Shown here piece after piece: positions 1,325-59,123 of a stretch of DNA of 64,000 nucleotides. The stretch's first letter is position 1. The number at the start of each line of letters is the position of its first letter. The notes beneath the pieces are model-generated. The model did not search any database and was not told where the DNA came from. It saw only the letters and a list, made by a program, of their open reading frames with translations. Source of the stretch: Anaerosoma tenue (lineage in GTDB: Bacteria; Actinomycetota; Coriobacteriia; Anaerosomatales; Anaerosomataceae); the NCBI RefSeq assembly GCF_023161965.1, contig NZ_JALNTY010000001.1:248001-312000 (forward strand), given 5' to 3'. A program made the position numbers and the translations under genes.

Positions 1325-1999
1325 ATGGGCCACGAGCTGTTCATCGCGCCGTCGATCCTCTCGGCAGACTTCACCAGACTGGCCGAGGCGGTGGCGCTCG
1401 TGGAAGATGCGGGCGCCGATCTGATACACGTGGACGTGATGGACGGGCGGTTCGTCCCCAACCTCACGATCGGCCCGCCCGTCGTGCGTGAGCTGAAGCG
1501 GGTGGCGCGACAGCCGCTGGACGTCCACCTCATGGTGGAGGATCCCGACCGCACCGCCGGGTGGTACGTCGACGCGGGCGCTGACATCGTGACGGTGCAC
1601 ATCGAGGCCGCGGTGCACGCGCACCGCACGCTCTGCGCGATCAGAGAGGGCGGGGCGATGGCGGGCATCACCCTGAACCCGGGCACGCCCGCATCCGCGA
1701 TCGCCGAGGTGCTGCCGTATGTGGACCTGGTGCTCGTGATGAGCGTGAACCCCGGATTCGGTGGTCAGTCGTTCATCGAGTCCTCGATAGCGAAGGTCCG
1801 CGAGATCGTACGGATGTGCAGGGATGCAGGGGTGTCGCCCCGGATCGAGGTGGATGGCGGGATCGACCCGCACACCGCGCCGCGGGTCGTCGACGCGGGC
1901 GCCGACACGCTGGTCGCCGGCAACGCCATATTCGGGCAGCCCGACCCGGCGGCGGCGCTTGCGGAGCTGCGGAGAAGCGCGCTGACCCGCAGCGTGTGA
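1325..1999 (+). CDS. rpe: Ribulose-phosphate 3-epimerase
   Basis: Interconverts ribulose-5-phosphate and xylulose-5-phosphate in the pentose phosphate pathway. The 224-residue TIM barrel shows PSILSADF near the N-terminus, the metal-binding HVDVMDGRFVPN motif, VHLMVEDP, SVNPGFGGQ and VDGGI, all family signatures. The ATG at 1325 is chosen because the conserved protein begins a few residues later and a GGGGAG ribosome-binding site overlaps the gpsA stop. The frame is also open far upstream, but that part is only the other frame of gpsA. Confidence 0.95.
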   Translation: MGHELFIAPSILSADFTRLAEAVALVEDAGADLIHVDVMDGRFVPNLTIGPPVVRELKRVARQPLDVHLMVEDPDRTAGWYVDAGADIVTVHIEAAVHAHRTLCAIREGGAMAGITLNPGTPASAIAEVLPYVDLVLVMSVNPGFGGQSFIESSIAKVREIVRMCRDAGVSPRIEVDGGIDPHTAPRVVDAGADTLVAGNAIFGQPDPAAALAELRRSALTRSV

Positions 2000-2031
2000 A
2001 GCGTGTCCAGCGAGAGGAGCGTGTGCCACCT

Positions 2032-2697
2032 ATGTTCACAGGCCTGATCGAGTGCGAGGGCGTGATAACGCGCGCAGACCGCGTGGGCGGCGGCATGCGC
2101 CTGGAGGTCTACGCGCCGGAGTTCGGTCGCGACATGCAGATCGGCGACTCGATCGCGGTGGACGGCGCACAGGTGAAGGTCGTCAAGTTCATCAGGGGCG
2201 CGTTCCTCACCGATGTCGACGCGGATACGCTGGGAGGCACCACGCTCGGTACTCTCGAGCAGGGCCAGAAGGTCAACCTCGAGCGCGCGCTGCGCCTCTC
2301 CGACAGGCTTGCCGGCCATCTTGTGGCAGGTCACGTGGACGGCATCGGACACCTCGAGATGCGACAGCCGGCCGGCAAGTTCACCGTGTACCAGTTCCAG
2401 GCCCCGCCCGAGGTCATGCGCTTCGTGGTCGAGAAGGGCTCGATCGCCGTGGACGGGATCTCGTTGACCGTCGGCAAGCTGGGCGGCGGGGGTTTCACGG
2501 CGGCGGTCGTGCCGCAGGTGGAGTCGTCGACCACGCTCAAGGACAAGGCGATCGGCGGCGGCGCCAACCTCGAGGTGGATATGCTGGCCAAGTACATCGA
2601 GCGGTTCGTGTCGGGCTACCACGGGGAGGCGGACTCCTCGAGCCACAGGCGCGGCCTCGGCGAGATGTTGCGGGAGTTCACCGAAGGAGGCCGGTAG
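2032..2697 (+). CDS. ribE: Riboflavin synthase alpha chain-like, two lumazine-binding domains
   Basis: Family enzymes dismutate 6,7-dimethyl-8-ribityllumazine to riboflavin. Two tandem beta-barrels are visible: MFTGLIE (1-7), the first barrel to about residue 90, then GHLVAGHVDG, the second-barrel motif GSIAVDGISLTV, and NLEVDML near the end. By eye-alignment to the E. coli enzyme the N-terminal motif NGCCLTV, carrying the important Cys48, is here DGAQVKV, so that cysteine is lost, while the histidine of the GHxxxGH motif and the late aspartate are kept. It may be an altered synthase or a lumazine/flavin-binding protein. No ribD, ribBA or ribH is nearby. A GTG at 2023 is an alternative start closer to the GAGGAG site. 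Confidence 0.85.
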   Translation: MFTGLIECEGVITRADRVGGGMRLEVYAPEFGRDMQIGDSIAVDGAQVKVVKFIRGAFLTDVDADTLGGTTLGTLEQGQKVNLERALRLSDRLAGHLVAGHVDGIGHLEMRQPAGKFTVYQFQAPPEVMRFVVEKGSIAVDGISLTVGKLGGGGFTAAVVPQVESSTTLKDKAIGGGANLEVDMLAKYIERFVSGYHGEADSSSHRRGLGEMLREFTEGGR

Positions 2698-2714
2698 GGG
2701 CATCGGGGAGAAGA

Positions 2715-2749
2715 GAACGCCCGGTCGCCGTTTCCGGTGCCGGGCGTTC
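2715..2749 (+). terminator. Hairpin after ribE
   Basis: Perfect 10-bp inverted repeat (2715-2724 with 2740-2749) around a 15-nt loop, starting 18 nt after the ribE stop. There is no clear T-run, so it may be an intrinsic terminator of the U-poor kind common in high-GC genomes or an RNA-stability hairpin. Confidence 0.55.
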
Positions 2750-3004
2750 CGCGGGGCGATCCAGTGGGTTCTCACCACCCTGTGGCTATCAACCGTGGAT
2801 TACCGTCTGTGTCAACCTCCGGAGGTCATCCGGGAGGGAACGTCACCATAGCAAAGCCGTCAGCGGCCGCACAAGCGACGGTACGTTCGATTCGACGAAC
2901 GGTCGCGGACACGCCTTCAATGGCCGTGAGGCCGTGTCCGACGATTTGCGGGCCGCCGCTGTACGGTAGGCTACGGGACACGCCACCCGACGAGAGGACC
3001 GCGC
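2750..3004. other. Palindrome-rich intergenic stretch, no gene seen
   Basis: No plausible coding frame. It holds several inverted repeats: CCTCCGG...CCGGGAGG around 2816-2838, and a perfect 8-bp stem at 2906-2913 paired with 2933-2940. A weak -35/-10 pair (TTGCGG at 2946, TAGGCT at 2967, 15-nt spacer) could drive the next gene. I do not recognise a known RNA family here. Confidence 0.4.
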
Positions 3005-3619
3005 GTGCCGAGTGGGCCTGACGACATCAGAGCGCGTCGGGAGCAGGCAGATGGCTGCTCCGACATCGTCGAGCGCGCACGTGCGACGAGGCGTACCGTC
3101 GTGGAGGCCGCCCCGGATGCGCTGGTGGCGGCTCCCACTCCGAGATCGAAGGCCGCCGAGCGCCAGCGTCGGGAGTTCCGTGCGCGGGTGGACGGTCTTG
3201 GAGGTGCGCTCGGCTTCTCGGTATCGCCCGACGGCACGTGGACATCCGCCTCGGGCCTCGAGATCGTCACGCGTGTGAGCGAGCGGCCGGTCACACTCGC
3301 CGCCGCCGCGCACTTCGTCGAGGAGCTGTGTCGCCGGGCGCGAGGACGTACCCCCGCGTGCTCGGTGCTGTTCGTGGTGGAGAGCGTATCGAGCGCGGAG
3401 ATGTTCCAGGTCGCGGTACGGCAGCGCGCGTGCCGTGGCACGGTGCGCGTGGTGGCCGTCGACGAACTCGAAGACGTGGCCGCCGGGTGGTCATCGGGGG
3501 TTCTTGATGCCGAGGACGTCATCTCCTCTATCACGCCTGTGGCCGCGATCGATGACGTGCCCGAGGCGGGGTCATCCGCATCACCCGACGATGGAGCCGG
3601 ACAGGACGGTGCATCATGA
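3005..3619 (+). CDS. Hypothetical protein upstream of the cysteine desulfurase
   Basis: I do not recognise this 204-residue protein. It starts at GTG behind GAGAGGA. The first 65 residues are Arg/Ala-rich and probably flexible or helical. Residues about 65-165 look folded, with an apparent beta-rich start (LGFSVSPDGTW) and alternating helices and strands containing two cysteines. The last 35 residues are acidic and low in complexity. No membrane segment or signal peptide is visible. Its stop overlaps the start of the desulfurase gene (ATGA), so it is probably translated together with the sulfur-transfer genes. Function unknown. Confidence 0.7.
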   Translation: MPSGPDDIRARREQADGCSDIVERARATRRTVVEAAPDALVAAPTPRSKAAERQRREFRARVDGLGGALGFSVSPDGTWTSASGLEIVTRVSERPVTLAAAAHFVEELCRRARGRTPACSVLFVVESVSSAEMFQVAVRQRACRGTVRVVAVDELEDVAAGWSSGVLDAEDVISSITPVAAIDDVPEAGSSASPDDGAGQDGAS

Positions 3620-4779
3620 CCGAGCGGTCTTCCCGTGTCTACCTCGACTATGCCGCCACCACTCCCGTGGATCCTCGCGTCGTCCGTGCTGCCGCCGAGG
3701 CCCTCGAGCGCTACCCGGGTAACCCGAGCTCGCTCTACCGGGAAGGGCGGGAAGCACGGCAGGCGCTCGAGGCGGCGCGCACGGACATCGCGCGGAGGAT
3801 CGGAGCCGCACACCCCGACGAGGTCGTCTTCTGCGGCTCGGGCACGGAGTCGGACAACGCGGCGGTCATCGGGATCGCGCGTGCGGCCGTCGCCGCGGGT
3901 CGCGGGCCGCACGTTGTCATCTCGGCGTTCGAGCATCATGCGGTGCTCGCCGCCGCCGAGCTGCTCCAACGCGAGGGGCTCACCGTGGAGCGCGTAGCGC
4001 CTGATGGCGACGGGATGATCCCGCCGGAAGCCGTTGCGGCAACCGTGAGGGACGACACGGCTCTCGTTTCGGTGATGCACGCCAACAACGAGGTGGGCAC
4101 GGTGCAGGATATCGCCGCTATCGCCCGCATCGCGCACGAGCACGGCGCGTTCGTGCACACGGATTCCGCCCAGTCCCTCGGCAAGATCGATGTCGACGTC
4201 TCGGCGATGGGCGTCGATGCGCTCTCGGCGGCTGGTCACAAGATCTACGCGCCCAAGGGCACCGGGGTGCTGTACCTGCGCTCGGGCGTACCGTTCGAGC
4301 CGCTGCTGCGCGGGGGCGGTCAGGAGGACGGGCGCCGTAGCGGCACCGAGAGCGTGGCCGGGGCCATCGCCTTCCGGGATGCGCTGCGGTACATGGACGA
4401 GGAGCGGCCGACGGAGCGGGAGCGGCTCGCCGCGCTCCGCGACGCGATCGAGGCCGGATTGCATGAAGCCGCGGGTCCCACGGTCGTGCATGGGGGCACC
4501 GGCCGGCGGGTCCCCCATCTCACGAGCATCGGGGTACCGGGCGTGGATGGGCAGATGCTTCTGCTCCACCTCGACGACGCCGGTTTCGCGGTGTCCACGG
4601 GAAGCGCATGCTCCTCGGGGAGCTCGGGCGGGAGCCATGTCCTGCGCGCGATGGGGGTGCGCGGTGAAGACCCGTACGGCACGCTGCGGGTCACCGTGGG
4701 CAGATGGACGACCATGGATGACGTGGAGCGCTTCGTCGAGGTGACCGCGTCCGTCGTGAAGCGGTTGCGTACGCGATGA
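3616..4779 (+). CDS. iscS: Cysteine desulfurase (IscS/NifS family)
   Basis: PLP enzyme that removes sulfur from cysteine as a protein-bound persulfide for Fe-S clusters and tRNA thiolation. At 387 residues it is full length. Motifs: YLDYAATTP (9-17), His108 in FEHHAVL, NNEVGTV (158-163), HTDSAQ (181-186), the PLP lysine K209 in GHKIYAPKG, and catalytic Cys332 in SACSSGSSGG, which marks the IscS-like group. It overlaps mnmA by ATGA. This suggests the sulfur goes at least partly to tRNA 2-thiouridine made by MnmA. No iscU-type scaffold gene is adjacent. Confidence 0.94.
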   Translation: MTERSSRVYLDYAATTPVDPRVVRAAAEALERYPGNPSSLYREGREARQALEAARTDIARRIGAAHPDEVVFCGSGTESDNAAVIGIARAAVAAGRGPHVVISAFEHHAVLAAAELLQREGLTVERVAPDGDGMIPPEAVAATVRDDTALVSVMHANNEVGTVQDIAAIARIAHEHGAFVHTDSAQSLGKIDVDVSAMGVDALSAAGHKIYAPKGTGVLYLRSGVPFEPLLRGGGQEDGRRSGTESVAGAIAFRDALRYMDEERPTERERLAALRDAIEAGLHEAAGPTVVHGGTGRRVPHLTSIGVPGVDGQMLLLHLDDAGFAVSTGSACSSGSSGGSHVLRAMGVRGEDPYGTLRVTVGRWTTMDDVERFVEVTASVVKRLRTR

Positions 4780-5801
4780 CCGGCGCAACGTGGTGGGCGG
4801 CCCTGTCGGGGGGCGTTGACTCGGCTGTAGCGGCGCTGCTCGCTCAGCGCGAGGGGCGTCGAGTGGCCGGCGTCACGCTCCGATTCCTCGACGGCGACGA
4901 ACAGGTGCGTGAGGCCCGACGCGTGGCGGACGCATTGGAGATCGAGCATCGCGTCATAGACGTGCGCGAACGGTTCGCCTCAGAGGTCATCGGGCCCTTC
5001 ATCGATGCATACGTCGCCGGGCTCACGCCCAACCCGTGCGTGGGCTGCAACGAGACGATGAAGTTCGGCGCGCTCCTGGACTGGGTGCGGGAAGAGGGCG
5101 GGGCGGGCGTGGTGACCGGCCACTACGCCCGTGTGGAGCAGACGCTCCGCGGCCCGAGGATCTCGCGCGCTCTCGACGAGGCCAAGGACCAGTCGTATTT
5201 CCTCTACCGGCTCGATCCGGGGTTGCTCGGGCGCATCGAGTTGCCCCTCGGGCGGCTTGCGAAGGCAGAGGTGCGGGCGGAAGCGTCTCGTGCGGGGCTG
5301 CCTGTGGCCGAGCACCCGGAGAGTCAGGACGTCTGCTTCCTGGACGGGCGCTCGGCAGGGGAGTACGTGTGCGCCCACCGGGCGGCTGCGTGCCGTCCGG
5401 GAGACGTGGTCGATCTCAGCGGACGGCCGATCGGCACGCACCGGGGAATCTGCCACTACACGGTGGGACAGCGGAAGGGCTTGCCCGGTGGCGAGGGCCC
5501 GCTGTACGTGGTGCGGGTGGACGCCGAACAGAACGTCATCGTGGCGGGACCGCCTGAAGCGTGCGAGGGGACGCACGTGGACGTGCATGATGCGATATGG
5601 CATGGCGACCCGGCCGACGACGTGACGGTGAAGGTCCGTGCGCGGATGCCTGCGGTACGGGCCCGCGTGGTACGCTCGGCGGGCGGGCTGGCGATCGACT
5701 TCGAGTCGCCTGTCTGCGCCGCGCCCGGGCAGGCGGCGGTCTGCTATGCGGGCGACGTGGTGGTTGGCGGCGGCACGATCGCAAAGGGGTCTACGGGATG
5801 A
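4776..5801 (+). CDS. mnmA: tRNA-specific 2-thiouridylase MnmA
   Basis: Thiolates U34 of Lys, Glu and Gln tRNAs using ATP and persulfide sulfur. The PP-loop SGGVDS is at residues 11-16; the two catalytic cysteines correspond to C91 (in NPCVGCN) and C187 (in SQDVCF); the family motifs GHYARV and GQRKGL are also present. Length 341 is typical. It sits directly after the desulfurase with a 4-bp overlap, an arrangement that couples sulfur supply to tRNA thiolation. Two of the tRNA types it would modify (Gln, Glu) are encoded at 31.6 kb. Confidence 0.95.
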   Translation: MTGATWWAALSGGVDSAVAALLAQREGRRVAGVTLRFLDGDEQVREARRVADALEIEHRVIDVRERFASEVIGPFIDAYVAGLTPNPCVGCNETMKFGALLDWVREEGGAGVVTGHYARVEQTLRGPRISRALDEAKDQSYFLYRLDPGLLGRIELPLGRLAKAEVRAEASRAGLPVAEHPESQDVCFLDGRSAGEYVCAHRAAACRPGDVVDLSGRPIGTHRGICHYTVGQRKGLPGGEGPLYVVRVDAEQNVIVAGPPEACEGTHVDVHDAIWHGDPADDVTVKVRARMPAVRARVVRSAGGLAIDFESPVCAAPGQAAVCYAGDVVVGGGTIAKGSTG

Positions 5802-54695: not shown

Positions 54696-54872
54696 ATGGC
54701 GGTACCCAAGAGAAAGACGACACGGGCCACCCGTGACGCTCGTCGCGCCACCCACCACGTGGAAGCGCCGTCGCGTTCGGTCTGCCCACAGTGCCACGAG
54801 CCGAAGCTTCCCCATCGTGTGTGCCCCTCATGCGGGTACTACGATGGCAGGGAGATCATCGACACCGAGTAA
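54696..54872 (+). CDS. rpmF: Ribosomal protein bL32
   Basis: 58 residues beginning MAVPKRKTT, with four cysteines at 30, 33, 43 and 46 forming the zinc ribbon. Like bL28 at 47.1 kb it is the zinc-binding version. ATG at 54696 follows AAGGGAG. It follows the DUF177 gene, a conserved pairing. Confidence 0.96.
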
Positions 54873-54934
54873 GCCTGGACGGCGCCGAGATACAGGCGCC
54901 GTCTTCAGTTCAGGGCCAGGGGAGGCGAGCGGCA

Positions 54935-57028
54935 GTGCCGGGGGGACTCTTCGCTCCACGAGGCATCGCTGTGGTCGGGGCGTCGCGCGACCCCTCCAAG
55001 GTCGGTGGCGCAGTGCTCGCCAACATCGTGTCGGGCGGCTACGGTGGGGCCATCTATCCCGTGAATCCCAACGCCACGGAGATCGGTGGCTACGCCGCGT
55101 ACGGTTCGGTGGCAGACGTCCCGGACCCCGTGGACATGGCTGTGATCGTCGTCCCCGCTCGTGGCGCGGTGGATGCCGTCCGCCAGTGCGCCGGCAGGGG
55201 CATCGGCTCCGCGGTCGTGATCTCAGCGGGGTTCCGCGAGACCGGAGCGGCGGGTGCTGTGATCGAGCGCGAGCTGGTGGCTGCCGCCCGCGACGGCGGC
55301 GTGCGGATCCTCGGTCCCAACTGCCTCGGCCTCATCGCCACGCGCTCCTCGCTCAACGCCTCGTTCGCCCCGATCATGCCCGCACCGGGCGGGATCTCGT
55401 TCCTCTCTCAGTCCGGAGCACTCGGTACGGCGATACTCGACTGGGCGCGGGGAGAGGGTATCGGCCTCGCACATTTCGTGAGCCTCGGCAACAAAGCGGA
55501 CATCTCCGAGGTCGACCTCATCCGGATGTGGTCTCACGATCCCGACACGCGCGTGGTCGTGGCGTATCTGGAAGCGATCTCCCACGGCCGCGCGTTCGTC
55601 GATTCGGTCATCGGCCTGCGCTCGCACGCCCCGTTCATCGCGCTGACGGCCGGCAGTTCCGACGCCGGCGCGAAGGCCGTCTCTTCTCACACCGGCAGTC
55701 TTGCAGGGTCACGCGTCGCCTACGAGGCGGCGTTCCGCAAGGCGGGCGCCGTGCCTGCACGGACGGTCCAGGAGCTCTTCGACCTCGCCGAAGGCTTCTC
55801 ACGGCAGCCGCTCCCGGCAGGGCCGGGAACGGTGATACTCACCAACGCCGGTGGTCCGGCGATCCTCGCCACCGACGCGTGCGCCGCTGAAGGGCTCACG
55901 CTTGCGAGTCTCGAGCCGTCCACCGTGTCCGCGCTGCGCGAGGTCCTTCCCGACGCGGCCGCCGTCTACAACCCGGTCGATATCCTCGGCGATGCTCCGG
56001 CCAGCCGCTTCGACGCCGCCGCGCGCATCCTGGTCGAGGATCCCGGGGTCCGCTCGCTCATCGTGGTGCTGACGCCACAGGCCATGACCGAGGCGCTGGA
56101 GACCGCACAGACGGTCGCATCGGTCGCTGCGGACAGCAGCGTCACGACTCTGGCAGTGTTCATGGGCGACCAGACCGTGGCGGAAGCCAACACCTACCTC
56201 AGGGAGCACGACGTGCCCACATACGCCTTCCCCGAGCGCGCGGTCGCCACCCTTGCGGCGATGCAGCGGCACGCCTTGCGGATCGCCCGGCCCGAGGCGC
56301 CGGTCCGTCATGTGGAGGCCGAGACACGCGTGGTGCGTGAGGCGATCGATCATGCTCGTGAGGCGGGACGCACGTTCATCACCGAGTCCTCCGCCGCCCG
56401 CATCGCGGGGGCCTATGGTATCCGTGTTCCCGCGTCGGGGCTCGCACACGATCTGTCCGAGGCCCGGTCCCTCGCGGCCTCCATCGGGTTCCCGGTGGTC
56501 ATGAAGATCGCCAGTCCGGATGTCCTGCACAAATCGGACATCGGCGGGATCGTGTTCGATATCGACTCGGTCGATGCGGTCGAGGACGCGTACGACTCGA
56601 TCATGCGCAAGGTCATGCATCGCCTCCCGGAGGCGACCATCTGGGGCGTGACGCTCCAGGAGCAGCTTCCTCCCGGCCGTGAGGTCATCATCGGCGTGAA
56701 CAGGGACGCCTCCTTCGGCCCCATCCTCATGTTCGGTCTGGGCGGCATCTACGTGGAAGTCCTGAAGGATGTCTCGTTCAGGATGTGTCCGGTGACCCCC
56801 GATGACGCCCGGGAGATGGTCGACGAGATCAGGAGCAACGCCCTTCTTCGCGGCGCGAGGGGAGAGGCACCGGCCGACATCGAGGCGATCGTCGACGTCA
56901 TCTGCCGCGTCTCCGCGTTGGCCATGGAGTTCGAGGACATCACCGAGCTCGACATCAACCCGCTCATCGTTGGTATGCGTTCAACGGGAGCGGTCGCTGC
57001 AGACATCCGCATCGGGATCGGAGGATGA
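54935..57028 (+). CDS. ADP-forming acyl-CoA synthetase (acetate-CoA ligase type)
   Basis: Converts acyl-CoA, ADP and phosphate to the acid and ATP (or the reverse). 697 residues from GTG 54935 behind GGGGAGG. The N-terminal CoA-binding Rossmann domain (GVVGAS-type motif here VVGASRDPSKVGG), GPNCLGL, the catalytic His in SSHTGSLAG, then a C-terminal ATP-grasp domain from about residue 470 with VVMKIASPDVLHKSDIGG. Alpha and beta parts are fused. This enzyme is typical of archaea and some fermenting bacteria, where it conserves energy from acetate-CoA. It is coupled to the DRTGG gene that follows. Confidence 0.9.
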   Translation: MPGGLFAPRGIAVVGASRDPSKVGGAVLANIVSGGYGGAIYPVNPNATEIGGYAAYGSVADVPDPVDMAVIVVPARGAVDAVRQCAGRGIGSAVVISAGFRETGAAGAVIERELVAAARDGGVRILGPNCLGLIATRSSLNASFAPIMPAPGGISFLSQSGALGTAILDWARGEGIGLAHFVSLGNKADISEVDLIRMWSHDPDTRVVVAYLEAISHGRAFVDSVIGLRSHAPFIALTAGSSDAGAKAVSSHTGSLAGSRVAYEAAFRKAGAVPARTVQELFDLAEGFSRQPLPAGPGTVILTNAGGPAILATDACAAEGLTLASLEPSTVSALREVLPDAAAVYNPVDILGDAPASRFDAAARILVEDPGVRSLIVVLTPQAMTEALETAQTVASVAADSSVTTLAVFMGDQTVAEANTYLREHDVPTYAFPERAVATLAAMQRHALRIARPEAPVRHVEAETRVVREAIDHAREAGRTFITESSAARIAGAYGIRVPASGLAHDLSEARSLAASIGFPVVMKIASPDVLHKSDIGGIVFDIDSVDAVEDAYDSIMRKVMHRLPEATIWGVTLQEQLPPGREVIIGVNRDASFGPILMFGLGGIYVEVLKDVSFRMCPVTPDDAREMVDEIRSNALLRGARGEAPADIEAIVDVICRVSALAMEFEDITELDINPLIVGMRSTGAVAADIRIGIGG

Positions 57029-57030
57029 CC

Positions 57031-58092
57031 ATGCGCTCCATCATCGTCACGTCGACGAAGCCGTACACGGGCAAGAGCGGTATCGCCGTCGCACTCACCC
57101 GGATCCTCGCCGACAGGGGCTACGACGTCGGCTACTTCAAGCCGTACGGGACGATGCCGGTCACCGTCGACGGTGTGACCACCGACGAGGACGCGCTGTA
57201 CGTCAACCAGGTCCTGGAGCGACCGTCTCCGCTTGACGCTGTCTGTCCGGTCGTACGGACCCAGGCGTTCATAGAGCGCATGTTGGCGGGCGAGGCGGCG
57301 GATACGCACCCTGCGGTCCTCGACGCGTTCGACCGATGCTCGGCAGGTCGGGACGTGATGGTGGTAGAGGGCCCCACCGAGCCTGCGCAAGGCACCTGCG
57401 CCGGACTGTCCCTGGGCGATATCGGTCCGCTGCTGTCGGCGCCGGTCCTGCTCGTCGACCGGCCACGCCCCACCGACCTCCCCGAAGACGCTCTCTGGAT
57501 GGCGCACTACCTTGGCGAACAGCTGTGCGGCGTCATCCTGAACGGGATCCACGAGTCACGGCTGCCCGTCGCCCGTGAGCGCATCGTCCCCTTCCTCGAG
57601 TCCCGCGGAGTACCGATGCTCGGCGTGATCCCGTTCGACCCCGCGCTCGGCTCGGTCACCGTCAGGGAGATCGTCGATGCCCTCGATGCCGTGGTCATCA
57701 CCGCCGAAGACCGGCTGCAGGACACGGTGGAGGCGTTCATGGTAGGAGCCATGGGTCAGGAGAAGGCGTTGCGGTTCTTCCGTCGCAAGGCGAACAAGGC
57801 GGTCATCACCGGAGGCGACCGCGCCGACGTCCAGCTTGCGGCCCTTGAGACCAGCACCCGCGCCATCGTCCTCACCGGCAACCTCAGGCCGGACCCGTTC
57901 GTCATCGCCCGTGCCGAGGATCTCGGGGTGCCGATGCTCCTGGTGGACACCGACACGCTCACTGCCGTGGAGCGGATGGAGGCGCTGCTCGGGCGTGTGC
58001 ATCTCCACGACCCGCTCAAGGCTGCTAGAATACGCCGGATGCTCGAGGAGCACTGCGATCTGGAGAGGCTCCTGAGCGCCATCGGTCTGTGA
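57031..58092 (+). CDS. P-loop/DRTGG-domain protein, Pta N-terminal-like
   Basis: 353 residues from ATG 57031 (behind GGAGG; ATG 57025 overlaps the previous stop and adds two residues). An N-terminal P-loop of the dethiobiotin-synthetase type (STKPYTGKSG) is followed by a DRTGG domain (about 210-320). This is the N-terminal half of long phosphotransacetylases, but the catalytic PTA domain is missing. Next to the ADP-forming CoA ligase it may sense metabolites or regulate that enzyme. Function unknown. Its stop overlaps the plsX region. Confidence 0.75.
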   Translation: MRSIIVTSTKPYTGKSGIAVALTRILADRGYDVGYFKPYGTMPVTVDGVTTDEDALYVNQVLERPSPLDAVCPVVRTQAFIERMLAGEAADTHPAVLDAFDRCSAGRDVMVVEGPTEPAQGTCAGLSLGDIGPLLSAPVLLVDRPRPTDLPEDALWMAHYLGEQLCGVILNGIHESRLPVARERIVPFLESRGVPMLGVIPFDPALGSVTVREIVDALDAVVITAEDRLQDTVEAFMVGAMGQEKALRFFRRKANKAVITGGDRADVQLAALETSTRAIVLTGNLRPDPFVIARAEDLGVPMLLVDTDTLTAVERMEALLGRVHLHDPLKAARIRRMLEEHCDLERLLSAIGL

Positions 58093-58121: not shown

Positions 58122-59123
58122 GTGCATGACAAGCCAGTGACGGTCGCTGTGGACGCCATGGGCGGCGATCACGCACCGGACGTCGTCATCGACGGGGTAC
58201 GGACGGCGTTGCAGCAGGACGCGTCCCTCTCTGTGCTGCTCGTAGGCACCGAGGAGGTCCTCGCCTCGTTCGAGCACGAGCGTTGCACAGCGGTGGTCGC
58301 GACCGAGACCATCGCGATGGACGAGCATCCGGCCTCCGCGGTCCGCTCGAAGAAGGACAGCTCGATCGTCGTCGGCTGTCGCCTCGTGCGCGAAGGACGC
58401 GCCCGCGGGTTCTTCAGTGCAGGCAGCACCGGCGCATGCATGGCTGCGGCGACGCTTGGCATGGGGCGCCTCTCCGGTGTCGTGCGGCCAGCCCTCGCCA
58501 CGGTCATCCCCGCCGGAGCACGCCCCACGACCCTCATCGATATCGGCGCCAACGCCGACGTCAAACCGGAGATGATCGTGCAGTTCGCATACATGGGTAG
58601 CGCGTACTCCCGCGTGCTCCTCGGTGTGGAGGAACCCACGATCGGCCTGCTCAACATCGGCGAAGAGCCCACGAAAGGGTCCGCGCTCGCACAGGAGGCG
58701 TATGCGCTGTTGGGAGAGGTCCCCGGGTTCGTCGGCAACGTCGAGGGCGCGGATGTCCCTTCAGGCGTCGTCGACGTGATCGTCACTGACGGCTTCACTG
58801 GCAACGTGACGCTGAAGGTCCTCGAGGGGCTGTCGAGAGTGCTGCTGGGTGAAGTGAAGACCGCGCTTACGTCCTCGATAGCGGCCAAGATGGCCGCCGC
58901 AGTGGTGCAGCCCTCGCTCATCGCCCTGAAGGAGCGCCTCGATCCGGACGTCTACGGTGGAGCGCCGCTGCTTGGTGTGAACGGTGTCTGCATGATCGGC
59001 CATGGCAGCTCCAACGCCAGGGCCGTGGCGAGTGGCGTCGTGGCCACGGCCCGCGCCATACGTGGAGACCTGACCGGCCAGATCGCTGCGTCCCTCGCGC
59101 CTTCGGCCGGGGTGGACGCATAA
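58122..59123 (+). CDS. plsX: Phosphate acyltransferase PlsX
   Basis: Makes acyl-phosphate from acyl-ACP for PlsY. 333 residues from GTG 58122, supported by GGGAGGAG 6 nt upstream and by the family start just before VAVDAMGGDHAP. Further motifs: SAGSTGA and DGFTGNV. GTG 58089 overlaps the previous stop and would add 11 residues. Its partner plsY is at the start of the window and the fab genes follow. Confidence 0.94.
   Translation: MHDKPVTVAVDAMGGDHAPDVVIDGVRTALQQDASLSVLLVGTEEVLASFEHERCTAVVATETIAMDEHPASAVRSKKDSSIVVGCRLVREGRARGFFSAGSTGACMAAATLGMGRLSGVVRPALATVIPAGARPTTLIDIGANADVKPEMIVQFAYMGSAYSRVLLGVEEPTIGLLNIGEEPTKGSALAQEAYALLGEVPGFVGNVEGADVPSGVVDVIVTDGFTGNVTLKVLEGLSRVLLGEVKTALTSSIAAKMAAAVVQPSLIALKERLDPDVYGGAPLLGVNGVCMIGHGSSNARAVASGVVATARAIRGDLTGQIAASLAPSAGVDA

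Follow-up and report, generated by a model that had tools for sequence, protein, structure and literature searches.

A free-standing AAA_26-DRTGG protein paired with an ADP-forming acyl-CoA synthetase in Anaerosoma tenue and other genomes

Why should the gene for an ADP-forming acyl-CoA synthetase be followed by one for a free-standing protein that resembles the N-terminal region of a phosphotransacetylase (Pta)? We addressed this question for a 64,000-nucleotide stretch of Anaerosoma tenue (contig NZ_JALNTY010000001.1, positions 248,001 to 312,000; the window), in which an alpha-beta fused ADP-forming acyl-CoA synthetase of 697 amino acids (hereafter ACD; 54935..57028) overlaps by 4 bases a partner of 355 amino acids with AAA_26 and DRTGG domains (hereafter DRT; 57025..58092), both, like all features given below, on the forward strand. 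A preliminary description had coupled the two genes in a genome expected to lack pta and ackA and had seen in DRT a regulatory piece transferred from Pta, sensing, for example, NADH or pyruvate. That description stood in part: the coupling, the absence of pta and ackA from this genome and a partner that is not a phosphotransacetylase were borne out, and a Pta origin and the proposed sensing were not. Our own reading, held tentatively and at a little under an even chance, is that DRT is a dedicated nucleotide-responsive partner of ACD in a two-gene acetate-metabolism unit.

The gene pair in bacteria and archaea

Both genes are real and lie at the coordinates given above. The ACD begins with GTG at 54935 (with a GGGGAGG stretch upstream, by eye) and stops at 57028, and DRT begins with ATG at 57025, the start that gives the 4-base overlap (an ATG at 57031 is a possible alternative). 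Their pairing is well supported in several partly overlapping sets of sequences. Among 61 near genomes (this one and 60 relatives), an ACD lay directly upstream of full-length DRT, on the same strand, in 38 of 38 (this genome and 37 relatives; 30 of 30 loci by locus sequence, the other 8 by match coordinates); incomplete cases were G033 (only the last piece of the ACD, at the contig start), G025 and G044 (an ACD more than 50% identical, the contig ending where DRT would lie) and G050 (a DRT fragment beginning at the contig end). A second set of named loci, which includes uncultured Actinomycetota, several Coriobacteriia and one Anaerosomatales, had an ACD upstream of DRT in 63 of 68, some cut by the contig start, the exceptions being two contig starts (L093 and L109), two loci with NuoF-like neighbours (L097 and L103) and a Chloroflexi locus with a shortened P-loop part (L111). 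A draw of 296 genomes from the phylum, in which up to 7 first-look candidates were scored per genome so that counts are lower bounds, gave at least 64 DRT matches below an expect value (E) of 1e-100 in at least 63 genomes, with the ACD pair in at least 58 of these 63 (G172, locus L162, being counted with a C-terminal ACD piece only). DRT without an ACD was seen there in L146, L150, L155 (redox-linked), L160, L161 and L166; G195 carries both a paired and an ACD-less DRT, so five genomes were without a pair. By eye, DRT adjoins an rnc-like gene in L160, L161 and L166, with no ACD beside it.

The pair also occurs on haloarchaeal plasmids, where an acetate-CoA ligase was among the annotated features under the match in 9 of 10 records (the eleventh matching plasmid record was a Pseudomonas pta). 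Loci L112 and L114 show the same 4-base overlap between ACD and DRT, and their DRT homologues matched AAA_26, DRTGG and CbiA only, with no PTA domain. In the tenth haloarchaeal record, a Natronococcus plasmid (L113), DRT and a gene for an AMP-forming acetyl-CoA synthetase (ACAS_N and AMP-binding domains) are transcribed away from each other (the two genes at 1683-3722 and 4004-5083), which makes this synthetase a possible alternative partner. Unlike the pair in L112 and L114, which lies among other neighbours, the bacterial pair sits mostly in the slot between rpmF and plsX: both genes flank it in 51 of the 68 named loci, one of them in 12 and neither in 5 (L097, L099, L100, L103 and L111). 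In the commonest spacing, seen in 54 of 167 loci with duplicates counted, a stop codon ends 3 bases beyond the point where the aligned DRT starts. Since the two genes remain neighbours in both bacteria and archaea, DRT may well control the ACD or assist it.

In the window, rpmF (54696..54872) precedes the pair and plsX (58125..59123; start uncertain, 58089 in the open reading frame list) follows it, with a cluster of fatty-acid genes downstream of plsX, all named from their translations. Between rpmF and the ACD, inspection by eye shows a candidate inverted repeat with arms of 8 bp (54879-54886 and 54895-54902) and no clear run of T.

The arrangement is already in print: in a 2024 paper on Haloferax (PMC11784441), a 'putative PTA' adjoining the ADP-forming acetyl-CoA synthetase is described as widespread in haloarchaea, with its function left undetermined there. 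The Haloferax mediterranei pair HFX_0998/HFX_0997 is like that of the window, with an ACD of 697 amino acids next to a partner of 364, a length that would fit an AAA_26 plus DRTGG make-up; HFX_0997 is labelled phosphate acetyltransferase there, whereas the plasmid homologues in L112 and L114 have no PTA domain, and it is raised on glucose, as is the ADP-forming synthetase. New here are the absence of a PTA domain from the scanned haloarchaeal homologues, the separation of free-standing proteins from Pta N-terminal domains in a tree and the retained ATP-site residues of BioD, the last two described below. A literature search found the terms DRTGG, phosphotransacetylase and ADP-forming together in PMC4481167 only.

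The window ACD matched all four domains expected of an ADP-forming acyl-CoA synthetase, in the expected order (CoA_binding_2, 1e-25; Succ_CoA_lig, 1e-46; Ligase_CoA_2, 7e-21; ATP-grasp_5, 9e-77). Its closest solved relative by sequence is a 4-hydroxybutyrate-CoA ligase (8wzu; E 7e-149), followed by 9y43, 2csu and 4xyl. Two histidines, which we take to be the catalytic residues of ACDs, are present and aligned with 8wzu: His252 in SHTGSLAGS (55688..55690), the candidate phosphohistidine of the alpha part, and His532 in LHKSDIGG (56528..56530), the candidate second active-site histidine in the ATP-grasp part. Because the protein scores under every NCBIfam equivalog cut-off, no substrate is assigned by family; acetate is presumed from the likeness of the protein to haloarchaeal ACDs (that of L112 is 42% identical), of which HFX_0998 acts on acetate (PMC11784441). 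This genome has a second, distant ACD-like match (36%). In Candidatus Aquicultor secundus (L090:3134-5216), the ACD aligns as two pieces in different frames, reflecting a frameshift or an assembly error.

Domains of the partner and its relation to Pta and BioD

DRT matched AAA_26 (9e-19) and DRTGG (1e-29), with CbiA over the AAA part, and these were its only Pfam matches: PTA_PTB, the catalytic domain of phosphotransacetylase, was not found in it, nor were CBS or DHH phosphoesterase domains. An AlphaFold model (mean predicted local distance difference test score 91.6; predicted template-modelling score 0.78) gave the P-loop part (residues 3-209, Pfam 4-209, PF13500; 57031..57651) the fold of BioD, the best-ranked full fold match (1dbs; Z 20.2, 213 aligned, root-mean-square deviation (rmsd) 2.9), with HypB-type NTPases also among the matches. 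The DRTGG part (residues 215-320, PF07085; 57667..57984) matched the structure of AF_1212 from Archaeoglobus fulgidus (2ioj; Z 20.1, rmsd 1.7), 43% identical over 114 residues; the solved chain is the DRTGG part only. AF_1211, the consecutive locus tag, is listed as an acetate-CoA ligase in PMC8359953.

Four residues of the P-loop part stand opposite K, K, D and E of E. coli BioD when the latter is aligned to the DRT profile: Lys17 in the P-loop (GKS; 57073..57075), Lys39 in an FKP motif (57139..57141), Asp56 (57190..57192) and Glu115 in a VEGP motif (57367..57369). We take these to be ATP-site residues in BioD. Among DRT rows with a letter at the position, Lys17 is conserved in 42 of 42, Lys39 in 41 of 41, Asp56 in 40 of 41 and Glu115 in 41 of 41; of the 42 proteins compared, 41 have letters at all four positions and 40 of these, including the window DRT, keep the full set (the exception being L101). 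DRT differs from BioD in that identity is about 18% and in its additional DRTGG domain.

The N-terminal region of E. coli Pta, a class IIa phosphotransacetylase, is likewise AAA_26 plus DRTGG, but it is fused to PTA_PTB. For full activity, Pta needs its N-terminal region (PMC12724200). The four-residue BioD set was complete in 0 of 13 Pta N-terminal domains (12 actinobacterial and that of E. coli): the Lys39 position is R in 12 of 12 actinobacterial domains and K in E. coli Pta, which has Leu in place of Lys17 and Thr in place of Asp56, although the Asp column of the Ptas may be misaligned. In unrooted trees of 44 free-standing rows and 10 Pta rows (9 without E. coli Pta), DRT did not group with the Pta N-terminal domains: the two lie on opposite sides of one branch both with E. 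coli Pta, which has a long branch (support 100/99), and without it (100/100). L111 and the Ptas L186, L191 and L192 were left out of the trees, and several rows have an unusual letter make-up. The three haloarchaeal DRT form one group (99/98 and 99/97 in the two trees), with a weaker split of haloarchaeal from bacterial DRT (88/93), and the redox-linked paralogues L097, L103 and L155 are nested among the ACD-linked DRT (96/86, in the tree with E. coli Pta). Scores from a profile of alignment A2 (39 rows, one incomplete) were 350-561 bits for the 64 strong matches among free-standing proteins and 61-107 bits for the 18 Pta matches. The G273 site known from the DRTGG domain of S. enterica Pta could not be located, as E. 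coli position 273 was Ala in the alignment, and it was not used.

Absence and co-occurrence of pta and ackA

The Anaerosoma tenue genome (2.1 Mb, 99.06% complete) had no match to PF01515 (PTA), which matched in 10 of 14 control genomes, and none to PF00871 (acetate kinase), which matched in 9 of 14 (the ackA family search was made for this genome only). It has four POR_N matches and two ACAS_N matches (AMP-forming acetyl-CoA synthetases) by profile search, and its sole other DRTGG match is a CBS/DHH/DHHA2 protein of the CBS-pyrophosphatase type.

Such an absence is not universal among relatives that carry the pair. In the near set, 6 of 61 genomes matched PF01515 at E 0.001, with 2 above the cut-off and both of these also carrying the pair; three of the four weak matches lie directly behind DRT and are probably plsX. 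Relatives G018 and G007 (loci L033 and L034) have pta and ackA side by side in addition to the ACD-DRT pair. The 296 phylum genomes comprised 5 with DRT and PTA, 58 with DRT only, 71 with PTA only and 162 with neither (Fisher P = 1.5e-4), and the same test with DRT carriers restricted to the 58 that have the pair, of which 4 have PTA, gave P = 1e-4, values of little weight since genomes are non-independent. Strict exclusion of pta by the pair is contradicted by the genomes that have both (2 of 61 near, 5 of 296 phylum). An in-situ swap of pta-ackA for ACD-DRT was not supported within the class, as tblastn with the proteins of the window from recG to acpP found none of them within some 5 kb on either side of pta (10 of the 22 class-mates with PTA). 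The idea of such a swap came from Clostridium, where pta-ackA lies near rpmF-plsX. In print, three deep actinobacterial clades are reported to lack both pta and ack and mostly to carry an acd (PMC7325909), and a putative ACD is reported to replace ack and pta in six species (PMC4481167).

What the partner may do for the synthetase

A partner dedicated to ACD, and probably responsive to nucleotides, is the most economical account of these observations. In its favour are the pairing itself, kept among different neighbours in haloarchaea, the BioD-site residues that DRT retains, the consecutive tags of AF_1211 and AF_1212, the rise of HFX_0997 on glucose alongside the ADP-forming synthetase, the need of Pta for its N-terminal region, and a report that DVU3031 of Desulfovibrio vulgaris, a free-standing AAA-DRTGG protein, matters for growth on L-lactate (PMC10102598). 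The ACD would interconvert acetyl-CoA, ADP and Pi with acetate, CoA and ATP as a single enzyme; the BioD-like pocket of DRT would bind ATP (or ATP/ADP), its highly conserved DRTGG face would dock on the ACD, and DRT would thereby set the activity or direction of the ACD by nucleotide state.

Several observations weigh against this account. Three genomes have a DRT without an adjacent ACD, no ACD-DRT fusion was seen in the 167 loci having both genes, and the paralogues in L097, L103 (on the same contig as L146) and L155 adjoin NuoE/NuoF-like or Fer2/Fer4 genes; the distance correlation of ACD with DRT (partial 0.67) is barely above that of plsX with coaD (0.61; 41 loci) and, suggestive at most, does not discriminate. 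By sequence profile the Pta N-terminal domain (E. coli, 7t85, E 2.7e-9) is nearer to DRT than is BioD (best 6.6e-6), the top NCBIfam match of DRT is to a Pta model, at 108 bits against a cut-off of 418, and two actinobacterial Ptas (L186 and L187) deviate from the BioD set solely by Lys39 to Arg, which led us to lower our estimate slightly both for a nucleotide-responsive partner and for an enzymatic DRT and to raise it for a Pta-derived one. In PMC11784441, an acetate mutant lacking 11 genes grew again when given HFX_0998 on a plasmid, and the enzyme purified from H. volcanii was active; these results neither show nor exclude a need for HFX_0997, because the deletions listed there do not include it and H. 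volcanii has its own partner. Lastly, DVU3031, which by its description has AAA and DRTGG domains but no PTA and lies among acetate/lactate genes, adjoins pta/ack and not an ACD; PMC4481167 describes it as usually absent and as having no part in lactate oxidation, contrary to PMC10102598.

An origin of DRT from the regulatory domain of Pta, detached and put to new use as a sensor of NADH or pyruvate, would explain the two domains it has in common with the N-terminus of E. coli Pta, the closer profile match and the two Ptas one residue of four away, yet we consider it rather unlikely: DRT stays apart from the Pta domains in both trees, whether or not E. coli Pta is included, the profile scores lie well apart, and no evidence on NADH or pyruvate sensing was found in either direction. 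We judge it quite unlikely that DRT is itself an enzyme in the same pathway as ACD, a BioD-type phosphotransferase that activates either a protein group or a carboxylate, the latter by making an acyl phosphate; the full BioD-site set in 40 of 41 DRT, the rank of BioD among the fold matches and the dedicated gene pair would all agree with this, but conservation of 90% or more is reached in A2 by 19 of 205 columns of the P-loop part (residues 1-205) and by 49 of 120 of the DRTGG part (residues 206-325), a contrast that suits docking better than a shared metabolite substrate. A bolder version, in which DRT is the second enzyme of an unrecognised acetate module, an ATP-dependent BioD-type phosphotransferase that acts on ACD or its intermediate (forming, for example, acetyl phosphate or another acyl phosphate in organisms without pta and ackA) and that archaeal records list as a phosphotransacetylase, seems to us distinctly improbable.

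The redox neighbourhoods of some paralogues (NuoE/NuoF-like or Fer2 genes in L097, L103 and L155, with a shortened form in L111) and the HypB-type NTPases among the fold matches could point to an assembly or stability factor, an NTPase chaperone for ACD with paralogues serving NuoE/NuoF-like redox enzymes. ACDs have been purified active, though from a host with its own partner gene (PMC11784441), and we regard a chaperone as improbable. In the Chloroflexi locus L111, the shortened DRT paralogue has genes for a NuoF-like protein and a molybdopterin oxidoreductase as neighbours. That the two genes are simply transcribed together as part of a housekeeping operon, with no functional link, would suit the single rpmF-plsX slot that holds most pairs in Actinomycetota (51 of the 68 named loci), where adjacency could have been inherited once, but haloarchaea keep the pair amid other neighbours, which makes this very improbable.

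These results bear on how the companion is named: 9 records of haloarchaeal plasmids annotate it as a 'phosphotransacetylase family protein' and the Haloferax paper calls it a 'putative PTA', yet the scanned homologues have no such domain. If DRT is indeed a nucleotide-responsive partner, the formation of acetate by ACD would have an unstudied layer of control, Lys17 would offer one clear target for mutation, and free-standing DRTGG proteins would gain a partner.

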